From Chitinophagaceae bacterium (GTDB taxonomy: Bacteria; Bacteroidota; Bacteroidia; Chitinophagales; Chitinophagaceae), in assembly GCA_019638615.1 (NCBI GenBank), contig JAHBTL010000005.1:124001-188000 (forward strand): a stretch of 64,000 nucleotides of DNA. The letters are read 5' to 3'. How positions within the stretch are numbered: position 1 is the stretch's first letter; each line of letters starts with the position of its first letter. A model generated the notes under the pieces. It had not been told where the DNA came from. It searched no databases and saw only the letters and a list, made by a program, of their open reading frames with translations. This document shows positions 13,697-64,000 of this stretch, one piece after another. Made by a program: the position numbers and the translations under genes.

Positions 13697-14636
13697 AGGG
13701 GTGGCGGCTAAAACCGGCCTCGCTTTAGCTTTAAATGAAATGCAGTTGGCCAATGCAATGGGGATTACATTAAAAAAGCTATCGTTTCTCTCTTATTCAC
13801 GACGGGTATCTGCCGTATCGCATTATCAAAAATTTTACCTTCCTAAAAAATCGGGGGGGTAAAAGACAGATCTCCGCGCCTATGCCCCGGCTAAAAAAAG
13901 CGCAGCACTGGATGTTGCAGCACATCCTGTATAAAGTGCCGGTTCACGCGCAGGCAAACGGGTTTGTTCCCCGCAAAAGTATAGTGAGCAATGCGGCGTC
14001 GCATATTGGTAAAAATGTAGTAGTGAATGCAGATGTGAAAGATTTTTTTCCTTCCATTACGTTTAAACGTGTAAAGGCATTGTTCGGGAAGTTGGGCTAT
14101 GCGGATAAAATAGCGACCATACTATCGCTCCTGTGCACAGAGCCGGTTACAGAAGAGGTAATGCTTGACGGCAAAAAATATTTTGTACAGAAAGGAGAAA
14201 GAGTGTTACCGCAGGGTGCGCCCACCAGTCCTGCCGTTACCAATATACTTTGTTTCAGGTTAGACAAAAGGTTAAGCGGCGTTGCGAAAAAGTTCGGTTG
14301 CAGCTATACCCGCTATGTAGATGATATTACGTTCAGCGGTACCCTTAATAACAACGATGCTCCAAAAATAGTATGGCATATTAAAAAAACACTGTCGGAA
14401 GAAGGGCTTACTATTCATCCTGATAAGATACGGGTAATGCAAAAAGTGAGCGCCGGGAAGTAACAGGTGTGGTAGTAAACAGGCAGTTGTCCGTAAGCAG
14501 GGAGAAGCTGCGTAATTTCAGGGCACTGTTACATCAAATGAAAAAGAACGGGCATGAAAACGCGAAATGGAGCGGAGGCTCATTGTCCGATGCCATATCT
14601 GCCGTCAATGCCTGCTCCTCCTCCTGCAAACGATAA
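13697..14636 (+). pseudogene. Reverse transcriptase gene inactivated by two frameshifts
   Basis: Three frames together give one protein. The first, ending at 13862, has LKKLSFLSYSRR and FYLPKKSGG. A frameshift at a run of seven G (13853-13859) is followed by KRQISAPMPRLKKAQHW, then NADVKDFFPSIT, LPQGAPTSPAVTN and the catalytic YTRYVDDITFSG (about 14310-14340). A second shift near 14455 is followed by VTGVVVNRQLSVSREKLRNF, up to a stop at 14636. These are the RT palm and thumb motifs of retron-like bacterial RTs; I recall close relatives beside MoxR/vWA/SWIM gene clusters. The N-terminus has no start codon and merges with the end of the lectin gene; the C-terminus looks short. If either shift is a sequencing error, the gene would still lack a clear start. 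Confidence 0.8.
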
Positions 14637-26157: not shown

Positions 26158-27474
26158 ATGCAGATAGACAAAACAACATACAACGACCTGTCCGTTTTCA
26201 GCGAGGAAGAGGAGTTTTCCGTATTTCATAAAATTAACTTTACACATACCAATGGTGGCAAAGAGTGGTTGCGCTGGCTGATGGCGGAGCCTGCTTCTGA
26301 TCTGAATAAAATACTTGACACCCAGAAAATATTAAAGATCATTATTGCCAATATGGATAAATGGCCCAAATCTATTACCAACGGAACCATGATGGTGATA
26401 GACCGGTTTTATGAAACCGCCATCGATCCGATCCCGGCTTCTTTCGACTTTATAAGTACACGTATATATAAAATACTGCACGGCGTTGACTATAGCCTCG
26501 TAAAATACTCGGTTACGCATTTTCGTGATTTTATAACAGGCGTACACCGGTTATCGGTATTGGCCAACGAAAGCGATGCGCCGCCCAGGTTGCAGCTGTA
26601 TGCTTCACGGATCAGGTCGCTTTTACAGCGCCAGCAGTTACAGGAACTGCTCAATAAGCCGCTGAACGAAAAGTTTTCTATCCGGGAGAATTTGTATTAC
26701 GGGCATTTTTTTCGTTCGGGCTTCCGCACGCGGTTTGATGAACTGGCAGAGATCTTTTACCAGATGGATGCCTGGTATTCGATGGCACGGGCAGTTATAG
26801 AATATAAGCTTCAATTCCCTGAATTTGTTGTTTCGGATCAGCCTTATATTAAAGCGGATAAAATATACCATATCCTTCTTGCCAGGCCTGTTGCGTATGA
26901 TATTGTTCTTTCGCCCAGCAGTAATTTCCTGTTTCTTACCGGCGCCAATATGGCCGGCAAAAGTACTTTTATCAAATCGCTGGGAGTGGCGGTATACCTC
27001 GCTCACCTGGGCATGGGCGTACCTGCGCAGCGATTGCAGTTAACCCTGTTCGATGGCGTGTTGAGTAATATTAATGTAGCCGACAACATCGTAAAGGGTG
27101 AAAGCTATTTTTTTAATGAAGTACAACGGATAAAAAATACGATCCTCACTATTAATAATGGAAAAAAATGGTTGGTATTGATCGATGAGTTGTTTAAGGG
27201 TACCAATGTGCAGGATGCCATGCGTTGTTCCCTGGCGGTGATCAACGGGCTCATCAAAATAAAAGGATCCCTGTTTGTGCTGTCTACTCACCTGTACGAA
27301 ATAAGTGAAGAGATTAAGGGCAAAGGAAATATTTCTTTCAAATATTTTGAAACCAATATAGACAACGATAAGCTGGAATTCAGCTACCAGCTGAGAGACG
27401 GCGTAAGCAACGACCGCCTCGGCTATTTTATACTGAAAAGCGAAAAGGTGGTAGAAATGCTGGAAAATTTATAA
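26158..27474 (+). CDS. MutS-like ATPase lacking the mismatch-recognition domain
   Basis: A 438-residue protein, about half of full MutS. The N-terminal part (1-240) is helical and resembles the core/lever domains of MutS. The C-terminal ATPase has Walker A TGANMAGKSTFIKSLG (about 261), the signature region NIVKGESYFFNEVQRI, Walker B WLVLIDELFKGTN and the STHLYEI His loop. There is no mismatch-binding domain I and no C-terminal Smr nuclease. Several short MutS-related proteins of this kind occur in Bacteroidota with unclear roles, probably in DNA structure handling. It is close to pyrC and likely cotranscribed. Confidence 0.85.
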   Translation: MQIDKTTYNDLSVFSEEEEFSVFHKINFTHTNGGKEWLRWLMAEPASDLNKILDTQKILKIIIANMDKWPKSITNGTMMVIDRFYETAIDPIPASFDFISTRIYKILHGVDYSLVKYSVTHFRDFITGVHRLSVLANESDAPPRLQLYASRIRSLLQRQQLQELLNKPLNEKFSIRENLYYGHFFRSGFRTRFDELAEIFYQMDAWYSMARAVIEYKLQFPEFVVSDQPYIKADKIYHILLARPVAYDIVLSPSSNFLFLTGANMAGKSTFIKSLGVAVYLAHLGMGVPAQRLQLTLFDGVLSNINVADNIVKGESYFFNEVQRIKNTILTINNGKKWLVLIDELFKGTNVQDAMRCSLAVINGLIKIKGSLFVLSTHLYEISEEIKGKGNISFKYFETNIDNDKLEFSYQLRDGVSNDRLGYFILKSEKVVEMLENL

Positions 27475-33782: not shown

Positions 33783-33797
33783 ACCCGCATTATTACC

Positions 33798-33868
33798 CAA
33801 AAATACCCATAAATCAACAAATACTCATAAAGGTACCCATATATACCCATATATACCCATATATGTAC
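33798..33868 (-). promoter_or_regulatory. Fic promoter carrying a tandem 10-bp repeat
   Basis: On the minus strand TATTTTTG (complement of 33798-33805) is a perfect -7 box, with a start predicted about 11 nt before ATG 33782. Immediately upstream the + strand holds repeated ATACCCAT-type words. Two perfect adjacent copies of ATATACCCAT (33841-33860) are flanked by further partial or diverged copies at 33793-33840 and ATAT at 33861. Changes in copy number would alter the spacing or bending of the promoter. Confidence 0.55.
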
Positions 33869-57166: not shown

Positions 57167-58342
57167 TTATTTGGTGTTATATTGAAAATGATCCACTACC
57201 AGTGCTGCCGCTCCTTTTAAGGACGCATCCGAGCCAAGCACAGAGGTTTTGATCTTTGTATGTTCGATCAGCCGCGGTATGCAAAACCGGTTCAATGCCT
57301 GCTCTACGGGCGCCATTAATAAACGGCCTGCACGCATCCCCCTGCCGCTTAATACGATCAGCTCAGGATTTACGATGTGTATCAATATTGCCAGGGCTTT
57401 TCCTATTTTATAAGCCATATCTGTTAACAGGTCTATTGCATCGGGATCGCCCAGGCTGGCAGCCGTCATGATCGATTCGCTTACCTGGTCGTGATTACCT
57501 TCAAAATTGATGCCCGAAGTTTTTTTGCCTTTTATTTCTGTAAGCGCTTTATCAACGATCACCTTTAGCGAGGCCTCTGTTTCAAGGCAGCCTCTTTTGC
57601 CGCAATCACATAAAATATCACTGTCATTGATCGGAATATGACTGAGCTCCCCCGCATACCCTGCAAACCCCCTGAATATTTCACCCTTAATGATCATTCC
57701 CAGGCCTATGCCCCAGCCCATATTCACCACCATTACATCCTGTATGTCTTTTGCCAGTCCAAAACGTAACTCTGCAAGGGCTATCACACTGGAGTCGTTG
57801 TCTATTTCAACCGGGAGTCCCAACATACGCTGCAGGTACATACGCAGGTTCTCACTATTTCCTCCTACCGGTAAATAAGAATAATTGATTCCCAGGGTTG
57901 TATTGATGAAACCCGGCATGCCGATACCTACTCCCATCACCTGATTGCGGTCAATGCCTGTTTTCTCAAGTACTGTATTGACAATATCAACAAGCTTTTG
58001 GGTTGTGCCTTTTTTATCTGCAAGGGTCAATGCAAAAGTTTCCGCAGGCACTATCTCTTTTTGCCCAAGATCTGTGATCGCCACTTTGGTAAAGAGCTGG
58101 TCCATGGCAACCGACACTATATACATCCTGTTGGCCTTAAGTGAATAGGTTTGAGGGCGTCTTCCACCGCTTGAAGGCGCATACCCGCTTCCGGTTACCA
58201 ATCCTGCCTCAGATAATTGATCAATTACTTTGGCTATCACCGGTATGCTCTTCCCCAGTATATCACTTAACCCGGCACATGATAATGTTTGCTTATAATA
58301 CAATTCGCGAAATACGAGGTATTTTATGGCATTATCTATCAC
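57167..58342 (-). CDS. ROK-family transcriptional regulator
   Basis: 391 residues. A winged helix at the N-terminus (1-75, LSCAGLSDILGKSIPVIAKV) is followed by a sugar-kinase-like ROK domain: VMGVGIGMPGFINTTLG, then VVNMGWGIGLGMIIKGEI and the zinc motif ELSHIPINDSDILCDCGKRG CLE-type (near residue 240), with its C-x-C-x4-C spacing. NagC/XylR-type members bind a sugar and release DNA. It lies between the GH30 gene and susC on one strand, so it is the obvious local regulator; glycan loci of Bacteroidota more often use hybrid two-component or AraC systems. Confidence 0.9.
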   Translation of the reverse strand: MIDNAIKYLVFRELYYKQTLSCAGLSDILGKSIPVIAKVIDQLSEAGLVTGSGYAPSSGGRRPQTYSLKANRMYIVSVAMDQLFTKVAITDLGQKEIVPAETFALTLADKKGTTQKLVDIVNTVLEKTGIDRNQVMGVGIGMPGFINTTLGINYSYLPVGGNSENLRMYLQRMLGLPVEIDNDSSVIALAELRFGLAKDIQDVMVVNMGWGIGLGMIIKGEIFRGFAGYAGELSHIPINDSDILCDCGKRGCLETEASLKVIVDKALTEIKGKKTSGINFEGNHDQVSESIMTAASLGDPDAIDLLTDMAYKIGKALAILIHIVNPELIVLSGRGMRAGRLLMAPVEQALNRFCIPRLIEHTKIKTSVLGSDASLKGAAALVVDHFQYNTK

Positions 58343-58365
58343 ACAAGAATGCTGAGTCGTTTACG

Positions 58366-58381
58366 ATGTTTGACAAACTTA
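58366..58381 (-). promoter_or_regulatory. ROK gene promoter with overlapping candidate operator
   Basis: The minus strand reads TAAGTTTG (complement of 58374-58381), a perfect -7 box. Overlapping it is the odd palindrome GTTTGACAAAC (58369-58379) within TTTGTCAAACAT (complement of 58366-58377), the word also found before susC. A bound regulator would cover the -7 box, as expected for autorepression. Confidence 0.45.
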
Positions 58382-58499
58382 ATGAAATAATTTAAAAAGA
58401 TTAAAAATTATTTAACATTTGATATAAAACTAAAAGCTTTTACCGGCCGGACCGGTTGAAACACCGGCAGTGCTTTGTGAAAGCCAATCTGTCCGCAAA

Positions 58500-59930
58500 T
58501 TACCAAATGTATGTGGCTGCAGCTCCCGGGTTTAAAGCAGTTGTGGTCGTTTTCCCCCGGTAGGCAATTCCAAAAGAGCGTTTTGCATCTGTATCATTTA
58601 ATACGATCAATACAATTTTATTATCAGGGGTTTTAAATGCTACATTTGGCAGGGGCGAATTATTGCCCGAGGCGATGCGAACGCTGCCAGGTCTTACAAA
58701 TTTTGCAGCATGGGCAATCACATAATAAGCAGGATTGCGCGTAACATGGTCTCCTTCTATGGTAAGAGCGCCCAGGCATTCCGTGCATCCGCCGGGAGTG
58801 TGGGGTTCAAGGTTTTTATCGGCTGCAAGGTTCCATTCCAAAGCGGTTTTACACCAGTTACGGGTGGTTCCTATAATAACATTTTTTATATGCCAGCCCA
58901 GGTCTCCCTTCAAATTTCCGGGCGCGCCAATCCACTGCTCTGTGAAATAAAGATGCTTATCCGGATGTGCATCATGCACCTGCGAAATGGCACTCACATC
59001 GCCTGCATATAAATGAAATGCAGAACCATCCACGTATTTTGCCGCCTCTGCATCATTCAGTATGGTAATAGGGTAGTCGGGCCGGTCGGCATTGTGATCG
59101 TACAAAATAATTTTGGTGGAAAGATCAGCCGCCTTCAATGCCGGGCCCAGGCTTTGTTTTATAAAGTCAGCCTGTTCCAGCGGTTGCATCAGCAAGCTTG
59201 GATTGTTGCCCGGATGCAACGGTTCATTCTGAATGGTGATGGCATCAATCGTAATGCCTTCTGCTTTCATTCCCTGGATGTATTTTACAAAATACTTTGC
59301 ATACGCATCGTAATACTCAGGCTTCAGGCTTCCGCCAACCGAATTTTTGTTGGTTTTCATCCATACCGGGGGCGACCAGGGAGATCCCAGTATTTTAATA
59401 TCCGGATAGATAGCCAGCACTTCTTTTAAAACAGGTATGAGATAAGTTTTATCGGGTTCAAGGCTGAACTTTTCCATGTTTACGTCTGTTTGTCCGTCCG
59501 GCAGATCGTTGTACGAAAATACTTTTTCATCAAGATCGGAAGCGCCGATGCTTACCCTTAAATAGCTCGTTCCGATATCGTTTGCATCGGTTGCAAACAT
59601 TTCTTTAAGAATAGTGGCCCTGGCGTTTGCACTCATTTTGCCCAGCAGCATGGCGCTGCCACCTGTTAAGGTATAACCAAAACCGTCCATTGTTTGAAAA
59701 GTATCCCGGTCGTTTACTTCAATACCGGAAACATTTCCTGCGCTGCCGGTAAGCGCAAGCGGCATTTCCTGTTTTTTAAAAAAAACCGCGGCGTCCGGGT
59801 CCGTAAGCCATACCTGCACATTTATTTTTGTGCTGTCGTTATCGCCATTGTTACCGGAGGAGCGGGACTTGTCGTTGCACGAAAAACAAAAAATAAGCAG
59901 GGCAAAAGCAAACAGGCAGACTTTTTTCAT
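58500..59930 (-). CDS. Glycoside hydrolase family 30 lipoprotein
   Basis: 476 residues with lipobox FCFSC near residue 18. The (beta/alpha)8 barrel has GFGYTLTGGSAMLLG at the start of the domain, then GSPWSPPVWMKTNKN, the acid/base Glu in ITIQNEPLHPGN (near residue 235) and the nucleophile Glu in LYFTEQWIG (near 328). These fit GH30 of the glucosylceramidase/beta-1,6-glucanase group. As first gene of a SusCD locus, it probably cuts beta-glucosidic bonds at the cell surface and feeds SusD. Substrate (beta-1,6-glucan is my best guess) is inference. Confidence 0.9.
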   Translation of the reverse strand: MKKVCLFAFALLIFCFSCNDKSRSSGNNGDNDSTKINVQVWLTDPDAAVFFKKQEMPLALTGSAGNVSGIEVNDRDTFQTMDGFGYTLTGGSAMLLGKMSANARATILKEMFATDANDIGTSYLRVSIGASDLDEKVFSYNDLPDGQTDVNMEKFSLEPDKTYLIPVLKEVLAIYPDIKILGSPWSPPVWMKTNKNSVGGSLKPEYYDAYAKYFVKYIQGMKAEGITIDAITIQNEPLHPGNNPSLLMQPLEQADFIKQSLGPALKAADLSTKIILYDHNADRPDYPITILNDAEAAKYVDGSAFHLYAGDVSAISQVHDAHPDKHLYFTEQWIGAPGNLKGDLGWHIKNVIIGTTRNWCKTALEWNLAADKNLEPHTPGGCTECLGALTIEGDHVTRNPAYYVIAHAAKFVRPGSVRIASGNNSPLPNVAFKTPDNKIVLIVLNDTDAKRSFGIAYRGKTTTTALNPGAAATYIW

Positions 59931-60022
59931 ATTGACAGATTTAGCAATGATTGATCCATATTGCCTGGTTGGGTAATAGGCATCATCACAGGAAAATTAG
60001 TACATTTTTGGCGGCAGGTCCG

Positions 60023-60361
60023 CTATTCCTTTTTTAATTTTTCATTTGAGATATGCCGTTCCGTATCGCGGATATTTTTCTTCTCGAAATTTTTATGTAA
60101 AGCTTCTGTAAGATTCACGCCGGTTTGATTGGCAAGACAAAGCAATACCCATAATACATCGGCCATTTCATCGGCCAGCTCTTTGCCCCTGTCACTTTCT
60201 TTAAACGATTGCTCCCCATATGTTCTTACCATCAATCTCGACAATTCTCCTACTTCTTCCATCAAAATACCCAGGTTGGTAAGTTCGCTGAAATATCTTA
60301 CCCCCACAGTTTGTATCCACAAATCTACCCGTTGCTGGGCTTGTTGTATTGTCATATCCAT
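60023..60361 (-). CDS. MazG-like nucleotide pyrophosphohydrolase
   Basis: 112 residues. The all-alpha MazG fold signatures are present: ILMEEVGELSRLMVR (metal-binding ExxE) and ELADEMADVLWVLLCLANQ (ExxD). These enzymes remove pyrophosphate from NTPs and clear damaged nucleotides. Compact single-domain form, as in dCTPase-like members. It has no partner toxin. The region upstream of its start is filled by the heptamer array at 60376-60644. An ATG two codons in is equally possible. Confidence 0.88.
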   Translation of the reverse strand: MDMTIQQAQQRVDLWIQTVGVRYFSELTNLGILMEEVGELSRLMVRTYGEQSFKESDRGKELADEMADVLWVLLCLANQTGVNLTEALHKNFEKKNIRDTERHISNEKLKKE

Positions 60362-60375
60362 ATAGAAGTTATTGT

Positions 60376-60644
60376 TTTGAGCTATCGGCTTTGGGCTGTG
60401 CTCTGGGCTGTCAGCCTTCAGCGATCAGCAATTTATTGTTTATGGTTTATATATAAACTATGCATGCCTAAAACCTGAAACGTGTAACCTGAGACCTGCA
60501 ACAGCCATCAAATCTCAAATTTCAAATTTCAAATCCTGTAACCGGTACCAGCTATCAGGTTTTGCCAGCCCTACACCCTATACCCTTAGCAGACAGCTCA
60601 TGGCTGATGGCTGACTGCTGATAGCTCAAAGCTCACTGCTCACC
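60376..60644. repeat. Long array of several heptamer word classes, ends inverted
   Basis: The 291 bp between two genes are almost wholly made of 7-bp words. Left: words of the form NNTSRGC, such as TGTCAGC, in phase from 60376 to 60429 with one 5-bp slip. Right: seven unbroken words of the form GCTSANN, such as GCTGATG, at 60596-60644. These are complements of the left class. Between are ACCTGNA-type words (60473-60500), four CAAATYY words (60509-60536) and CCTANAC-type words (60570-60590). The right arm reaches to within 9 bp of the stop codon of the gene at 60653. Confidence 0.8.
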
Positions 60645-60652
60645 GCCCCCAC

Positions 60653-63154
60653 CTAAAACACCACCCTGAAACTACCGAATATTCCAAAGCGTTCAAATGT
60701 TTTTTCGGGCAACGGGCGTGGCAGCACACGCCATATAAAATCCAGCCTGAATATCTTGAATATATTATCAACACCCGTCCCTATTTCAAGATAAGGCTTT
60801 CCTCCAAGTGTTTTAAATGAATGCCCGTTGTTATCCGAATTGTATGCCAAGTTAGCATCACTTAGTCCGCTCCATAATATTTTAGCGCCCCAGAACTGCC
60901 TGAATTTCAGGATGCGCGTCAATGGAATAAACCTGAATAAGCCATTGCCGATATTGTGCTCTACATTAATGCCCGAATACCAATCGGCCAGATATTCGTA
61001 GCGTGTCATCATATTAAATGCATATTTATTATAGTACCATATATTATTGCCCGGCGGAATTTCAAGCAATGTATACGGCAGCGTACCCGATACTTTACCC
61101 GCATACAGGTTATAATAGATGCTGCCGAAGGGAGAGATCTTTTTATAATCGGAAATACTGCCGCCTATACGGTGGTAGTTGTAGCTGCTGTTTAATATGC
61201 CGCTAAAGCCTTTGGAATAATGAACTTCCACAATGGGATAGTCGCTTCCCAGGCTCATCCTGTAAAAGTTACCGTCAAGGAATTTTTCGAGATACGCAAA
61301 GCGCAGCTTAATGCCGCCCTCAAAACTGTTAAGCGGCTCTCCCCCGTTTTCCGATGGAAAATGTTCCTTTAACGGAAGATTGTTGAGCGGAGTAAAGCGC
61401 CTGCGCTGCCCCGTAAGCGCAACCGAAAAGCCGCTGCTCCATTCTTTAAAATATTCCAGCTTTATTTGCTCGATTTTCATGTACCGTAGCGGCACATTCG
61501 GCTTGCGCAATGCAATGGCAAACAAATTATCACTGCCTACTTCATCGTAGTAAACCTGCCCGTTGTCTATATCATTCAGGTAAGATCCAAGCAGTGTTGA
61601 GCGGGGCGATTTGTTGAGGAGGTACAATGTTTGAAACCGCCCTTTCACTTTTTTATCTCCGAATCCATACGCCAGGTAACCGGTAAAATATATTTTTTTA
61701 TTAAAGCCGGTATTGGTACCTAAATCAAAGCGAACGCGGGCGCCTTCGTATGCATTTACCGTAAACCAGTTATACCAGGGGCCAATTTCATAATTGCCGA
61801 CGTTTTTATACCCTGTTCCTAAAAAGTAAATAAGATCGGTGAACCGTTTAAAGCTTGGCATCGCCATCAGGGTGTCTATCATCTGGTAAATGCCTTTTTC
61901 TGTTTGGGTCAGTTGCTCATGCCTTGCTTCCTGCCAGTATTCATCGGTTTTTTTATTGGCCGAATCTGCCACCACCACCTCTTCGCGCAGCTTGTTTTTT
62001 TCCAGTTCAAAAAGGGTGGAAGAATCATTGATCGCCACATCGCGGTAAGTGCTGGTCTTCCGTCCTATAAAGTTTAACCTTTTTTTATCCATGAAAATAA
62101 AGTCAGCCACGAACTTGTCTTTCGATAAAAACCATATCGAATCGTTTACCAGTTGAAATTCCTGTACCAGGTCCAGCTTTTCCACAAAATTCAGGTTAGC
62201 GGTTTCCGGTACGCGGAGGTTCATTTTCATTACTGCGTACGAAGAATCCGCTATCCATGCATCTCCGGTAAATACGTTTTCACCTTTGTGCTTGGGTGTA
62301 AATACAAAATGAAAATATTGACGTCCGCCTATGTACTGGGTATCGGGCACCCGGTATAAATAATAGGCCGAGCCATTATCGCTGATGGGACTTACAAAAT
62401 CCTTGTCAAAAACCGGGATAAAATTTTTATAGATATTTATGTTCTGGTACATGCCGCCAAGCATTTTGGTAATGCTCTGGTTGTTGAAGCCGATCGTTTT
62501 CACGGCTTTTATTACTTCCCTGGTTTTACGGGGACTTTTCTGGTAGTAATAATCCGACAGGGTTTCGGTAAGATACAGCGGCAGCACCGGCTTTGCTTCA
62601 GATGCACTGTCAATGTTCTGATCAATCACTTCCCTGAACGGCTTAAGGATTTTCATCTTGATGAGCTTGTTGTTGCCCGCGTCATTCAGGTCGGCCTCCA
62701 GTTTGTTATACAGCTCGTATGAAAAGTTGTCAAAGCGCGCCCTGTCGTTCAACGGTTTGTTTTTAACGATCTTCCGCCACAGAATCAATCCCTTTCCTAT
62801 CTTGCTTTTTACAATTACTTCCGCGTTCCTTTTGCCCCGTTCCAGGTTAATTACCACTTCCATTTCTTCAATGGTGCTGTCTATGTAAAGATGGAAATCT
62901 TCAAAACCCACATAAGTGACTTCCAGCGTATCGGAAGGCCATTTATCCAGTGTAAACGAAAAATTCCCTGCAGAATCGGTGAGGGCGCCTACCGTACTGT
63001 TTTTAAATTGTACAGAAGCGAAAGGTATACGCTCTTCACTGTGAGCATCCTGCACATACCCTGTTATTTTACGTATCTGCGCCCGGACGGCATGGTTGGA
63101 TAAGGTGAAAAAAATAAAGAATACTCCGCTAATAAGCAGTGATTTCCAAGTCAT
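60653..63154 (-). CDS. DUF5686 outer-membrane protein with CarboxypepD_reg-like domain
   Basis: 833 residues with a signal peptide (ending VRAQ, residue 26). Residues 28-100 form a CarboxypepD_reg-like beta domain (ITGYVQDAHSEERIPFASVQ). The rest matches DUF5686, a large outer-membrane beta-barrel family of Bacteroidota: KTREVIKAVKTIGFN, GGRQYFHFVFTPKHKGENVF and a C-terminal barrel ending FGIFGSFRVVF. The function is unknown; it may link cell-envelope maintenance with uptake. The -7 box at 63159-63166 places the transcript start almost on the ATG. Confidence 0.88.
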   Translation of the reverse strand: MTWKSLLISGVFFIFFTLSNHAVRAQIRKITGYVQDAHSEERIPFASVQFKNSTVGALTDSAGNFSFTLDKWPSDTLEVTYVGFEDFHLYIDSTIEEMEVVINLERGKRNAEVIVKSKIGKGLILWRKIVKNKPLNDRARFDNFSYELYNKLEADLNDAGNNKLIKMKILKPFREVIDQNIDSASEAKPVLPLYLTETLSDYYYQKSPRKTREVIKAVKTIGFNNQSITKMLGGMYQNINIYKNFIPVFDKDFVSPISDNGSAYYLYRVPDTQYIGGRQYFHFVFTPKHKGENVFTGDAWIADSSYAVMKMNLRVPETANLNFVEKLDLVQEFQLVNDSIWFLSKDKFVADFIFMDKKRLNFIGRKTSTYRDVAINDSSTLFELEKNKLREEVVVADSANKKTDEYWQEARHEQLTQTEKGIYQMIDTLMAMPSFKRFTDLIYFLGTGYKNVGNYEIGPWYNWFTVNAYEGARVRFDLGTNTGFNKKIYFTGYLAYGFGDKKVKGRFQTLYLLNKSPRSTLLGSYLNDIDNGQVYYDEVGSDNLFAIALRKPNVPLRYMKIEQIKLEYFKEWSSGFSVALTGQRRRFTPLNNLPLKEHFPSENGGEPLNSFEGGIKLRFAYLEKFLDGNFYRMSLGSDYPIVEVHYSKGFSGILNSSYNYHRIGGSISDYKKISPFGSIYYNLYAGKVSGTLPYTLLEIPPGNNIWYYNKYAFNMMTRYEYLADWYSGINVEHNIGNGLFRFIPLTRILKFRQFWGAKILWSGLSDANLAYNSDNNGHSFKTLGGKPYLEIGTGVDNIFKIFRLDFIWRVLPRPLPEKTFERFGIFGSFRVVF

Positions 63155-63158
63155 ATTG

Positions 63159-63166
63159 CAAAAATA
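63159..63166 (-). promoter_or_regulatory. -7 promoter box for the DUF5686 gene (TATTTTTG)
   Basis: A perfect TAnnTTTG box on the minus strand, ending 5 nt before the ATG at 63154. The transcript should be leaderless or nearly so. Confidence 0.45.
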
Positions 63167-63289
63167 ACCTTCCGGACTGCATAATAAACAGCCCTTGTAT
63201 ATTATTTAAATAAGTGTTAAGAAATTTTTTTACCTGAAAACTTGCAAAACCTGATTTTTTATACTTACTTTGAATTTCAAAGCACTTTT

Positions 63290-63925
63290 ATGCAGGAAAA
63301 ATATGCAGGGCTTGAAACCCTCAGGGATATTAAGCAGATGATGGAACGCAGCAGCCGGTTTATCAGTTTAAGCGGGTTGAGTGGTATAGGCGCCGGAGTA
63401 TGCGCGTTGGCGGGAAGCTGGTTCGCGTACCAGGTAATTGGCGGGCAGGATACGGCAGATGTACGCGGCTATGATTTTGAAAGTGTAACAATAAAGCAAC
63501 TGATGGGTTACAGGCTGTTTACGATAGCAATGTATACACTTGTATCGGCTATTGTGGTCGCCTTTTTTTTCACCTGGCTGAACAGCAAAAAAAACAAAGT
63601 TCCGCTGTGGGGAAGCGCCTCAAGAAGATTGATGATCAATTTTTGTATACCCTTATTTGCGGGCGGCGTATTTTTACTGCGAATGAGTGCGCTGGGGTAT
63701 TTGGGAATGATAGCCCCCGGTTGTTTGATATTTTATGGTATTTCTCTGGTAAATGCCAGCAAGTATACATTAGGAGAAGTTCGCTATCTTGGCTACGGAC
63801 AGATCCTGCTGGGTGTGATCAGTTGTTGGTTTCTCGGCTCGGGCCTGTTTTTCTGGACACTGGGTTTTGGCGTGCTGCACATTATATATGGAACGATGAT
63901 GTGGTGGAAGTATGAAAGAAGGTGA
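63290..63925 (+). CDS. Multi-pass membrane protein of unknown function
   Basis: 211 residues from ATG 63290 (MQEKYAGLETLRDIKQMMER); the frame opens at 63242 but adds an aromatic N-tail without support. About six membrane helices follow: SGLSGIGAGVCALAGSWFAY, then LFTIAMYTLVSAIVVAFFFT, a Phe/Cys/Ile helix, GYLGMIAPGCLIFYGISLVN, and two at the C-terminus. GYGQILLGVISCWFLGSGLF is the most conserved-looking part. I recall such proteins in Bacteroidota beside a winged-helix regulator, which would lie past the window end. Short cytoplasmic loops, no catalytic motif. Confidence 0.75.
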   Translation: MQEKYAGLETLRDIKQMMERSSRFISLSGLSGIGAGVCALAGSWFAYQVIGGQDTADVRGYDFESVTIKQLMGYRLFTIAMYTLVSAIVVAFFFTWLNSKKNKVPLWGSASRRLMINFCIPLFAGGVFLLRMSALGYLGMIAPGCLIFYGISLVNASKYTLGEVRYLGYGQILLGVISCWFLGSGLFFWTLGFGVLHIIYGTMMWWKYERR

Positions 63926-64000
63926 AAGGTATAAGGAATAAGGCGTAAGGAGGTAAGGCGAAATGGTTTACGCCTTAAACCCCACACCTTCCACCCTATA
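63921..64000. repeat. Inverted heptamer array at the window end
   Basis: Words related to GGTATAA (for example GGCGTAA, also present in the array after recQ) start at 63921 over the stop of the membrane-protein gene and run to about 63963 with one 1-bp slip. Complement words such as TTAAACC and CCACACC occupy 63968-63995. TAAGGCG pairs with CGCCTTA at the centre. The array continues past the window. Confidence 0.75.

Follow-up and report, generated by a model that had tools for sequence, protein, structure and literature searches.

Which process fills almost an entire intergenic gap with variable 7-bp words, and what keeps those words in an inverted order? The question arises at positions 60376–60644 of the window analysed here, the whole stretch of 64,000 nucleotides from a Chitinophagaceae bacterium genome, where a first-pass annotation had read a chain of degenerate heptamers of several classes. 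We found that this region is one of many islands of degenerate heptad arrays spread over the genome, and that such arrays are real, abundant, beyond chance expectation and in part described before.

The heptad array in the window

The array lies in a 291-bp gap (60362–60652) between a DUF5686 gene and a MazG-domain gene, both on the minus strand according to the open reading frame list and Pfam. Read in minus-strand sense, the words begin 5–8 bp past the DUF5686 stop codon (they end at 60644 or 60647), and the last word, at 60376, stands 14 bp ahead of the mazG start. The features are listed below, with letters for the word classes and G- and C-orientation for their two directions.

60023..60361, minus strand: flanking gene for a MazG-domain nucleotide pyrophosphohydrolase-like protein, 112 aa (PF03819, 8.5e-12)
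60362..60652, no strand: heptad island, DUF5686 stop side at 60652 and MazG start side at 60362 (lag-7 self-match 0.60, z 13)
60376..60396, plus strand: three NNTSRGC words, class A, G-orientation (pattern match)
60402..60429, plus strand: four further class-A words of the form NNTSRGC, G-orientation, in a different phase from the preceding run (pattern match)
60445..60458, no strand: 14-bp perfect palindrome GTTTATATATAAAC (read from the sequence)
60472..60536, plus strand: composite segment (class C, AGCCATC, class B) recurring elsewhere in the genome (blastn, 85–91% at several other loci)
60474..60501, plus strand: four class-C words, CCTGAAA CGTGTAA CCTGAGA CCTGCAA, C-orientation (read from the sequence)
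60508..60535, plus strand: four TCAAATN words, class B, C-orientation (pattern match)
60572..60585, plus strand: two class-F words, TACACCC TATACCC, C-orientation (pattern match)
60596..60644, plus strand: seven consecutive GCTSANN words, class A, C-orientation (pattern match)
60653..63154, minus strand: flanking gene for a DUF5686 protein with a CarbopepD_reg_2 domain, 833 aa (PF18939, 4.4e-60; PF13715, 6.3e-13)

The self-match of 60376–60644 at lag 7 was 0.599, against 0.252 ± 0.027 in 2000 dinucleotide shuffles. It was 0.439, 0.375 and 0.320 at lags 14, 21 and 28, and between 0.17 and 0.30 at every lag up to 39 not divisible by 7. Each of the top 25 270-bp stretches of the 64 kb for 7-periodicity overlaps this region, and all six copies of GCTNANNGCTNANNGCT in the 64-kb window fall within the gap (chance mean 0.03). 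These values bear out the first-pass reading that the region is built of 7-bp words; a spurious phase would be expected to appear in shuffled sequence too, and the largest shuffled value was 0.347. The window array thus has a 7-bp tandem unit with conserved and free positions.

In its details the first reading stood for the most part. The words extend over nearly all of the 291-bp gap, beyond the 60376–60644 first read, and their phase, described as near-unbroken within each block, breaks between blocks. The seven consecutive GCTSANN words at the right end are exact, and the left end does hold seven NNTSRGC words, divided by one phase break into the runs at 60376–60396 and 60402–60429. Other classes do occupy the middle, as CCTGNAA-type words (60474–60501), TCAAATN words (60508–60535) and the TACACCC/TATACCC pair (60572–60585). 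The longest blocks are of class A. At the palindrome, single class-D words stand in opposite orientations, near the switch from G- to C-orientation. Rfam returned no match at E up to 1 in 58000–64000, and a known structured RNA family was rejected as the identity of the array on this result.

Elsewhere in the window we observed a reverse-transcriptase domain (RVT_1) at 13846–14442 on the plus strand, a MutS-like domain below the mutS1 cut-off at 26731–27417 on the plus strand, and a period-10 imperfect tandem repeat, TACCCATAAA, at 33794–33861.

Heptad arrays in the genome, the genus and other Bacteroidota

The genome comprises 7.18 Mb in 87 contigs. A blastn search of it with the window array gave at least 49 matches, the array itself included (40 of 303 candidates scored). 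The pattern of three GCTNANN words followed by GCT matched 153 times in this genome, and the reversed pattern not once; with overlapping matches counted, the pattern occurs in 17 of 58 genomes and in 10 of the 12 within the genus, at 1 to 153 hits each. The reversed control was silent in all 12 genus genomes and had hits in 9 of the 46 outside, so that the class-A pattern is not a clean test beyond the genus.

Arrays were also counted by periodicity alone. The first 400 kb of contig C1 hold 49 lag-7 arrays amounting to 6.65 kb (1.7%), compared with 1 to 13 arrays at other lags from 4 to 13. Counted within intergenic regions, lag-7 arrays occur in 58 of 464 regions of the own genome (864 kb sampled), with 1–11 at other lags from 4 to 12; an excess of 7-bp periodicity in other intergenic regions, which the first-pass annotation had made the touchstone of its reading, is therefore present. 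The corresponding counts were 34 of 238 in G005 and 6 of 40 in the sister species G002 (at most 3 and 1 at other lags from 4 to 12), and 5 of 46, 3 of 34 and 2 of 33 in G003, G007 and G009 (at most 2, 1 and 1 at other lags). Abundance is patchy within the genus, and array-rich and array-poor species are interspersed on a three-protein tree.

Among the best 80 glyS neighbourhoods of Bacteroidota, 691 intergenic regions held 27 lag-7 arrays at 20 loci, together with 14 arrays at lag 8, 11 at lag 14 and no more than 4 at any other lag from 4 to 15. The 20 loci include Mucilaginibacter, Pedobacter, Dyadobacter and Larkinella, with mostly different words; they also include one genus member (L160), one run of N (L226) and several AT-rich hits.

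Word classes and variation between neighbouring words

The words of the sampled genome fall into about eight recurring degenerate classes. In G-orientation they read roughly RGCNNTS (A), RATTTGA (B), RGTTDYA (C), RGTTTRT (D), RTGGAYR (E), RGGTRTA (F), TGATTTN (G) and RTTGAYR (H), and the majority start with a variable purine. We assigned classes and orientations by eye, starting with contig C1 and the window, and rewrote the patterns after other stretches had been seen, which makes any test outside C1 largely, not strictly, held out. Blocks of at least two words numbered 91, 73, 50 and 71 in four data sets, compared with 2, 0, 1 and 3 in the same regions reversed. A G-quadruplex as the general rule was rejected, as only F among the eight class patterns permits regular GGG.

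A mismatch-tolerant run finder gave high reversed-sequence controls for classes B to G, and class A alone was therefore used for positional variation. Among class-A words, which were picked by likeness to the consensus, positions 1–2 are fixed at 90–95% and positions 6–7 at 57–61%. Likeness between neighbouring words at the variable positions was 0.42, compared with 0.39 for words shuffled within runs and 0.44 for shuffling overall (69 pairs from 22 runs). Taking all classes, identical adjacent words made up 0.099 of 372 pairs, where 0.118 ± 0.011 was expected from shuffling within runs and 0.152 ± 0.016 from shuffling within class. Two words apart, identity was 0.155, with expectations of 0.113 ± 0.015 (runs) and 0.148 ± 0.019 (class; 239 pairs); three apart, it was 0.047, with 0.102 ± 0.025 expected within runs (106 pairs). 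Adjacent identical words are rarer than expected, which indicates that the arrays are not fresh single-word slippage tracts, and a perfect microsatellite or recent slippage tract was rejected because neighbours are not identical above expectation. It may be that perfect tandem copies are soon lost, or that copying proceeds in 14-bp steps.

Polarity and position relative to genes

Blocks of both orientations occur together in 60 intergenic regions, and in 58 of these most G-orientation blocks stand to the left of the C-orientation ones. The ratio was 17:1 on contig C1, where the classes were first set, 14:1 on the other own-genome contigs, 12:0 in G005 and 15:0 in other genus members, which makes 41 of 42 in the largely, though not strictly, held-out set outside C1; related sites of sister species were counted separately in the tallies. 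Earlier patterns had given 164 G-then-C block pairs and 22 of the reverse. The polarity holds over all classes together, and in co-directional as well as convergent regions.

GC skew provides a label-free test, from which regions with intermediate lag-7 scores or outside 120–1500 bp were left out. Over the 60 bp read outward from a gene, the skew in array regions was +0.34 on the stop side (n = 83) and +0.31 on the start side (n = 59), compared with +0.01 (n = 497) and +0.10 (n = 631) in array-free regions; both arms of an array are thus G-rich in the direction leading out of the neighbouring gene. The array-free values led us to reject a general skew of intergenic DNA as the origin of the polarity. 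Within the genus, skew was higher in the left than in the right half of 118 of 140 arrays. Outside it, the left half was higher in 27 of 38 (two ties), with a mean left-minus-right difference of 0.20 ± 0.07; this mean should be set beside the 0.11 ± 0.02 that a slightly different statistic, the outward skew sum, gave for 392 array-free regions outside the genus. The inverted, multi-class layout first seen at this one locus is accordingly real and general across the genus.

Blocks are also placed unevenly with respect to genes, which were taken as ATG open reading frames of at least 100 aa with approximate start positions. In the sense of the gene concerned, the block nearest a stop codon was in G-orientation in 103 cases and in C-orientation in 48, and the block nearest a start codon was in C-orientation in 82 and in G-orientation in 29. 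Stop codons as the purpose of the words were rejected, since stop trinucleotides lie in the G-orientation of classes B, F, G and H and in the C-orientation of A, C and D. Blocks occurred in 34 of 191 convergent, 87 of 756 co-directional and 15 of 226 divergent regions (convergent versus divergent, p = 0.0007). In the genus the nearest block lies at a median of 23 bp from stop codons and 51 bp from start codons, and in 62 of the 87 co-directional regions the blocks are closer to the upstream stop. The suggestion that arrays sit at gene 3′ ends therefore holds within the genus and fails in 79 loci of other Bacteroidota, where no such preference was seen (convergent 5 of 95, co-directional 23 of 388, divergent 10 of 154).

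Evolution at orthologous sites

Ten genus genomes in which the DUF5686 and mazG genes stand side by side were compared; in two further genomes, G011 and G001, no mazG was found beside the DUF5686 gene. The orthologous gap contains words in seven species, at lengths of 98, 139, 192, 257, 268, 272 and 291 bp; the words in G004, G008 and G006 were judged by eye, and the gaps of G003 and G006 have word-free stretches alongside words. In G010 the gap measures 113 bp with no visible words, and in G009 and G007 it is array-free at 17 and 25 bp, so that the window gap is about 270 bp longer than in these two relatives.

Other sites were compared with the sister species G002. In 11 of 12 pairs the region scores as an array in both sister species, at the same gene boundary; pair 184 has an array in G002 alone. 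Content differs by indels of multiples of 7 bp and by whole blocks. Gaps were taken from sister-species alignments in which identity reached 75% or more over half or more of the shorter region; those of 5 bp or longer were divisible by 7 in 6 of the 10 found in array regions and in 2 of the 16 found elsewhere. Eight of the ten compared C1 array regions have identities of 0.47–0.79 to G002; the average for flanking genes is 0.867 and the median for array-free regions 0.844. Blocks were replaced in pairs 105 and 204 and lost or gained in pairs 117 and 188; the others show general divergence. The supposed process working in 7-bp units is supported by these 7n-bp indels and by the gain, loss and swapping of blocks.

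The other two C1 regions depart from this pattern. Pair 106 reaches 98.9% identity once its 14-bp and 7-bp indels are set aside, and pair 66 is 96.6% identical; these gaps (G000 C1, at 155327 and 86786, respectively) are thus 97–99% identical to the sister, while flanking genes average 87%. The near-identity may reflect either strong constraint or recent local exchange between the species.

Parts of the window array are dispersed as well. The junction ATTTGATGGCTNTTGCANGTT, close to a segment in the window array, was found 8 times in the own genome and 26 times in G002; 36 other relatives lack it. Of the 26 G002 copies, 20 were examined, and in these a common core of about 45 bp is flanked by a varying number of words on one side and by differing sequence on the other. 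Such ragged ends speak for exchange among arrays and against a fixed unit that transposes.

Explanations for the arrays and their polarity

The explanation that we regard as probable, with considerable room for doubt, is that heptad units turn over by slippage or unequal recombination and are exchanged between arrays, within a polar layout. Turnover would proceed by replication slippage or unequal recombination between words, to which recombination or template switching between arrays would add, and sites just past stop codons may be favoured because insertions are tolerated there. Polarity could be kept by selection on transcript or DNA structure, which might be a loosely paired hairpin working in both directions or a C-rich, G-poor tract recognised by Rho or a similar factor; alternatively, it could stem from the exchange process itself, if this is unable to reverse orientation. 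Several observations count against the model. Neighbouring words are no more alike than shuffled ones; identical neighbours are rarer than expected, the opposite of what fresh single-word slippage would produce, although words two apart are not; free turnover predicts otherwise than the 97–99% identity of two regions; one array is present in one sister only; and outside the genus there is no 3′-end preference and a weaker skew. On balance the turnover model is reasonably supported.

A doubtful but serious alternative is that the arrays are selected bidirectional 3′-end elements, in which a G-rich and then a C-rich arm would form an imperfect hairpin, or a C-rich, G-poor landing stretch for Rho, and so end transcripts or shield mRNA 3′ ends. 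It would account for a polarity that runs across classes and is alike in co-directional and convergent regions, and for blocks lying nearer to stops than to starts (medians of 23 and 51 bp). Folding is consistent with it: the mean z was −2.16 in 63 arrays (−1.78 on the other strand) and −0.98 in 32 controls (p = 0.008), in a test that dropped arrays above 400 bp, applied a time limit to arrays and scored 32 of 60 planned controls. Same-class arms pair slightly better in their real word order (z −0.89, s.e. 0.27, n = 19), and site 106 in G005 has a near-perfect stem. However, the word-order effect is small overall (mean z −0.52, s.e. 0.17, n = 50), and for different-class arms it is within error (−0.30, s.e. 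0.21, n = 31). The absence of an Rfam match also speaks against such an element, and the one terminator-like site nearby, at 60662–60691 (0.5 expected), lies outside the array in the end of the DUF5686 gene. Moreover, the last word is just 14 bp from mazG, and TANNTTTG, which we take to be a Bacteroidota promoter element, is absent from both strands of the array, so mazG may need transcription through it. Hairpin formation may be part of the story, with word-order complementarity not strongly kept; the folding and word-order results lend the first-pass idea of selection on a folded RNA weak support. Unlikely in our judgement is the more ambitious reading of a polar multi-word heptad code at Bacteroidota gene boundaries, in which interchangeable, inward-facing words would form bidirectional transcript-end or insulation elements, rebuilt by exchange between loci, quickly, with polarity and site under selection.

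A putative sequence-specific protein contacting a core every 7 bp (three words then spanning 21 bp, two turns of the helix), or a putative RNA-binding protein at one per heptamer, would fit the contrast between fixed core and variable positions in class A (90–95% and 57–61%) and the behaviour of the variable positions as independent draws. This is quite improbable given about eight classes with different cores in a single genome and other words in relatives outside the genus. Copying of words by a mobile element or a reverse-transcriptase-like enzyme appears more improbable still. It would explain the dispersal of the composite segment in one species pair, a Y1 transposase match stands about 140 bp away from one of the G002 copies, and a GC-rich palindrome is present in two junction copies and one other G002 array; yet copy ends are ragged, and the 20 of 26 G002 copies examined share no boundaries of the kind that a mobile element with fixed ends would leave. 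Reverse-transcriptase copying was rejected because RVT_1, found in 7 of 12 genus genomes, does not track array abundance: it is absent from array-bearing G003, G006, G008 and G009 and has four matches in G007, which lacks any hit of the three-word class-A pattern. Y1 transposases (Y1_Tnp) are present in all 12 genus genomes, whether these are rich in arrays or poor, and transposase content was rejected as the cause on that ground. Loss of mismatch repair, letting heptamers expand, would suit the patchy abundance within the genus and is nonetheless scarcely credible, since MutS1 scores above the cut-off in all 12 genus genomes; loss through absence of mutS is not supported.

Relation to known heptamer repeats

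The closest relatives of these arrays are reported by Rehm et al. 2015 (PMC4692102), who describe GGGANTN / GGGGA(C/T)T heptamer arrays in Xanthomonas and Nostoc as degenerate 7-bp units with fixed positions, about 90% intergenic. According to the same paper, the repeats are nearer to the upstream ORF (on average 28 nt versus 160 nt), are more frequent between convergent than between divergent ORFs, and include 70 and 75 cases in two Xanthomonas species of two convergently oriented sites close together; the majority lie between the same genes in two species, with length and sequence differing. The likeness to our arrays lies in the degenerate tandem 7-bp unit, in the position nearer to the upstream ORF end, which here applies to the genus only, in the preference for convergent over divergent genes, in oppositely oriented sites standing close together, and in shared gene boundaries at which length and sequence differ between species. 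The differences lie in a single G-rich, G-quadruplex-capable G-tract class there, whereas here about eight classes, most without regular G-tracts, mix in islands under a polarity common to them. With a Xanthomonas-like layout, words mostly lacking a regular G-tract and about eight classes under one polarity, we place the present arrays among degenerate heptamer arrays as a variant.

A first-pass statement that no such form was described in Bacteroidota needs qualification. MacGregor 2015 (PMC4679880) reports TAACTGA direct repeats in Beggiatoaceae, Cyanobacteria and five Bacteroidetes, one of the five with “larger assemblages of heptamer repeats”; in the genome that the paper mainly treats, most repeats sit immediately ahead of start codons. 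What remains of the claim is that searches of one open-access library gave no description of the multi-class polar form. The TAACTGA repeats resemble our arrays in being intergenic, in sometimes sharing a gap with other heptamers and in having repeat-free, shorter gaps in close relatives, but they consist of one exact unit, whereas the words here are degenerate, multi-class and nearer to stop codons. The TAACTGA unit is absent from the sequence of the 60362–60652 gap.

Heptanucleotide repeats of cyanobacteria are known as STRRs. They share tandem heptamers with the present arrays and belong to another phylum. Heptanucleotides of Calothrix are also mentioned in the literature.

The over-representation of heptamers among bacterial simple repeats has been an open question since 2007, as cited in PMC4692102. 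The present genus offers many islands per genome, sister species sharing sites, array-free orthologous gaps and a clear polarity, and slippage, exchange and selection can therefore be separated in it. If the polarity is selected, it would constitute an overlooked regulatory layout at many gene boundaries of these bacteria; if it is not, it would be a new mutational signature.

Other repeats and palindromes in related genomes

Words of the TAACTGA type do occur in the relative G020, where heptamers in both orientations surround a palindrome-rich stretch downstream of the DUF5686 gene (L045). The 80 glyS loci (L160–L239) have a lag-8 excess of their own, 14 arrays beside 27 at lag 7 in the 691 intergenic regions. 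The reversed control TCGNNANTCG... has 110 hits in G014, with hits in eight other non-genus genomes, and perhaps represents a heptamer class of its own.

REP and BIME palindromes are dispersed intergenic elements with inverted arms, built of units with defined ends. The heptad segments examined have ragged ends instead, and REP-like palindromes lie inside some arrays. In the DUF5686–mazG gap of G004 (L032), a REP-like palindrome, AAACCTATAAGGTTTGC...GCAAACCTTATAGGTTT, stands between the array’s two inverted arms. The GC-rich palindrome TCCGCCACGGCGGA lies within class-B words at three G002 sites (L247, L248 and the gap upstream of glyS, L137), as if a REP-like hairpin had been inserted into heptad arrays; the L247 junction is the one about 140 bp from the Y1 transposase match (G002:C6:40151–40489).
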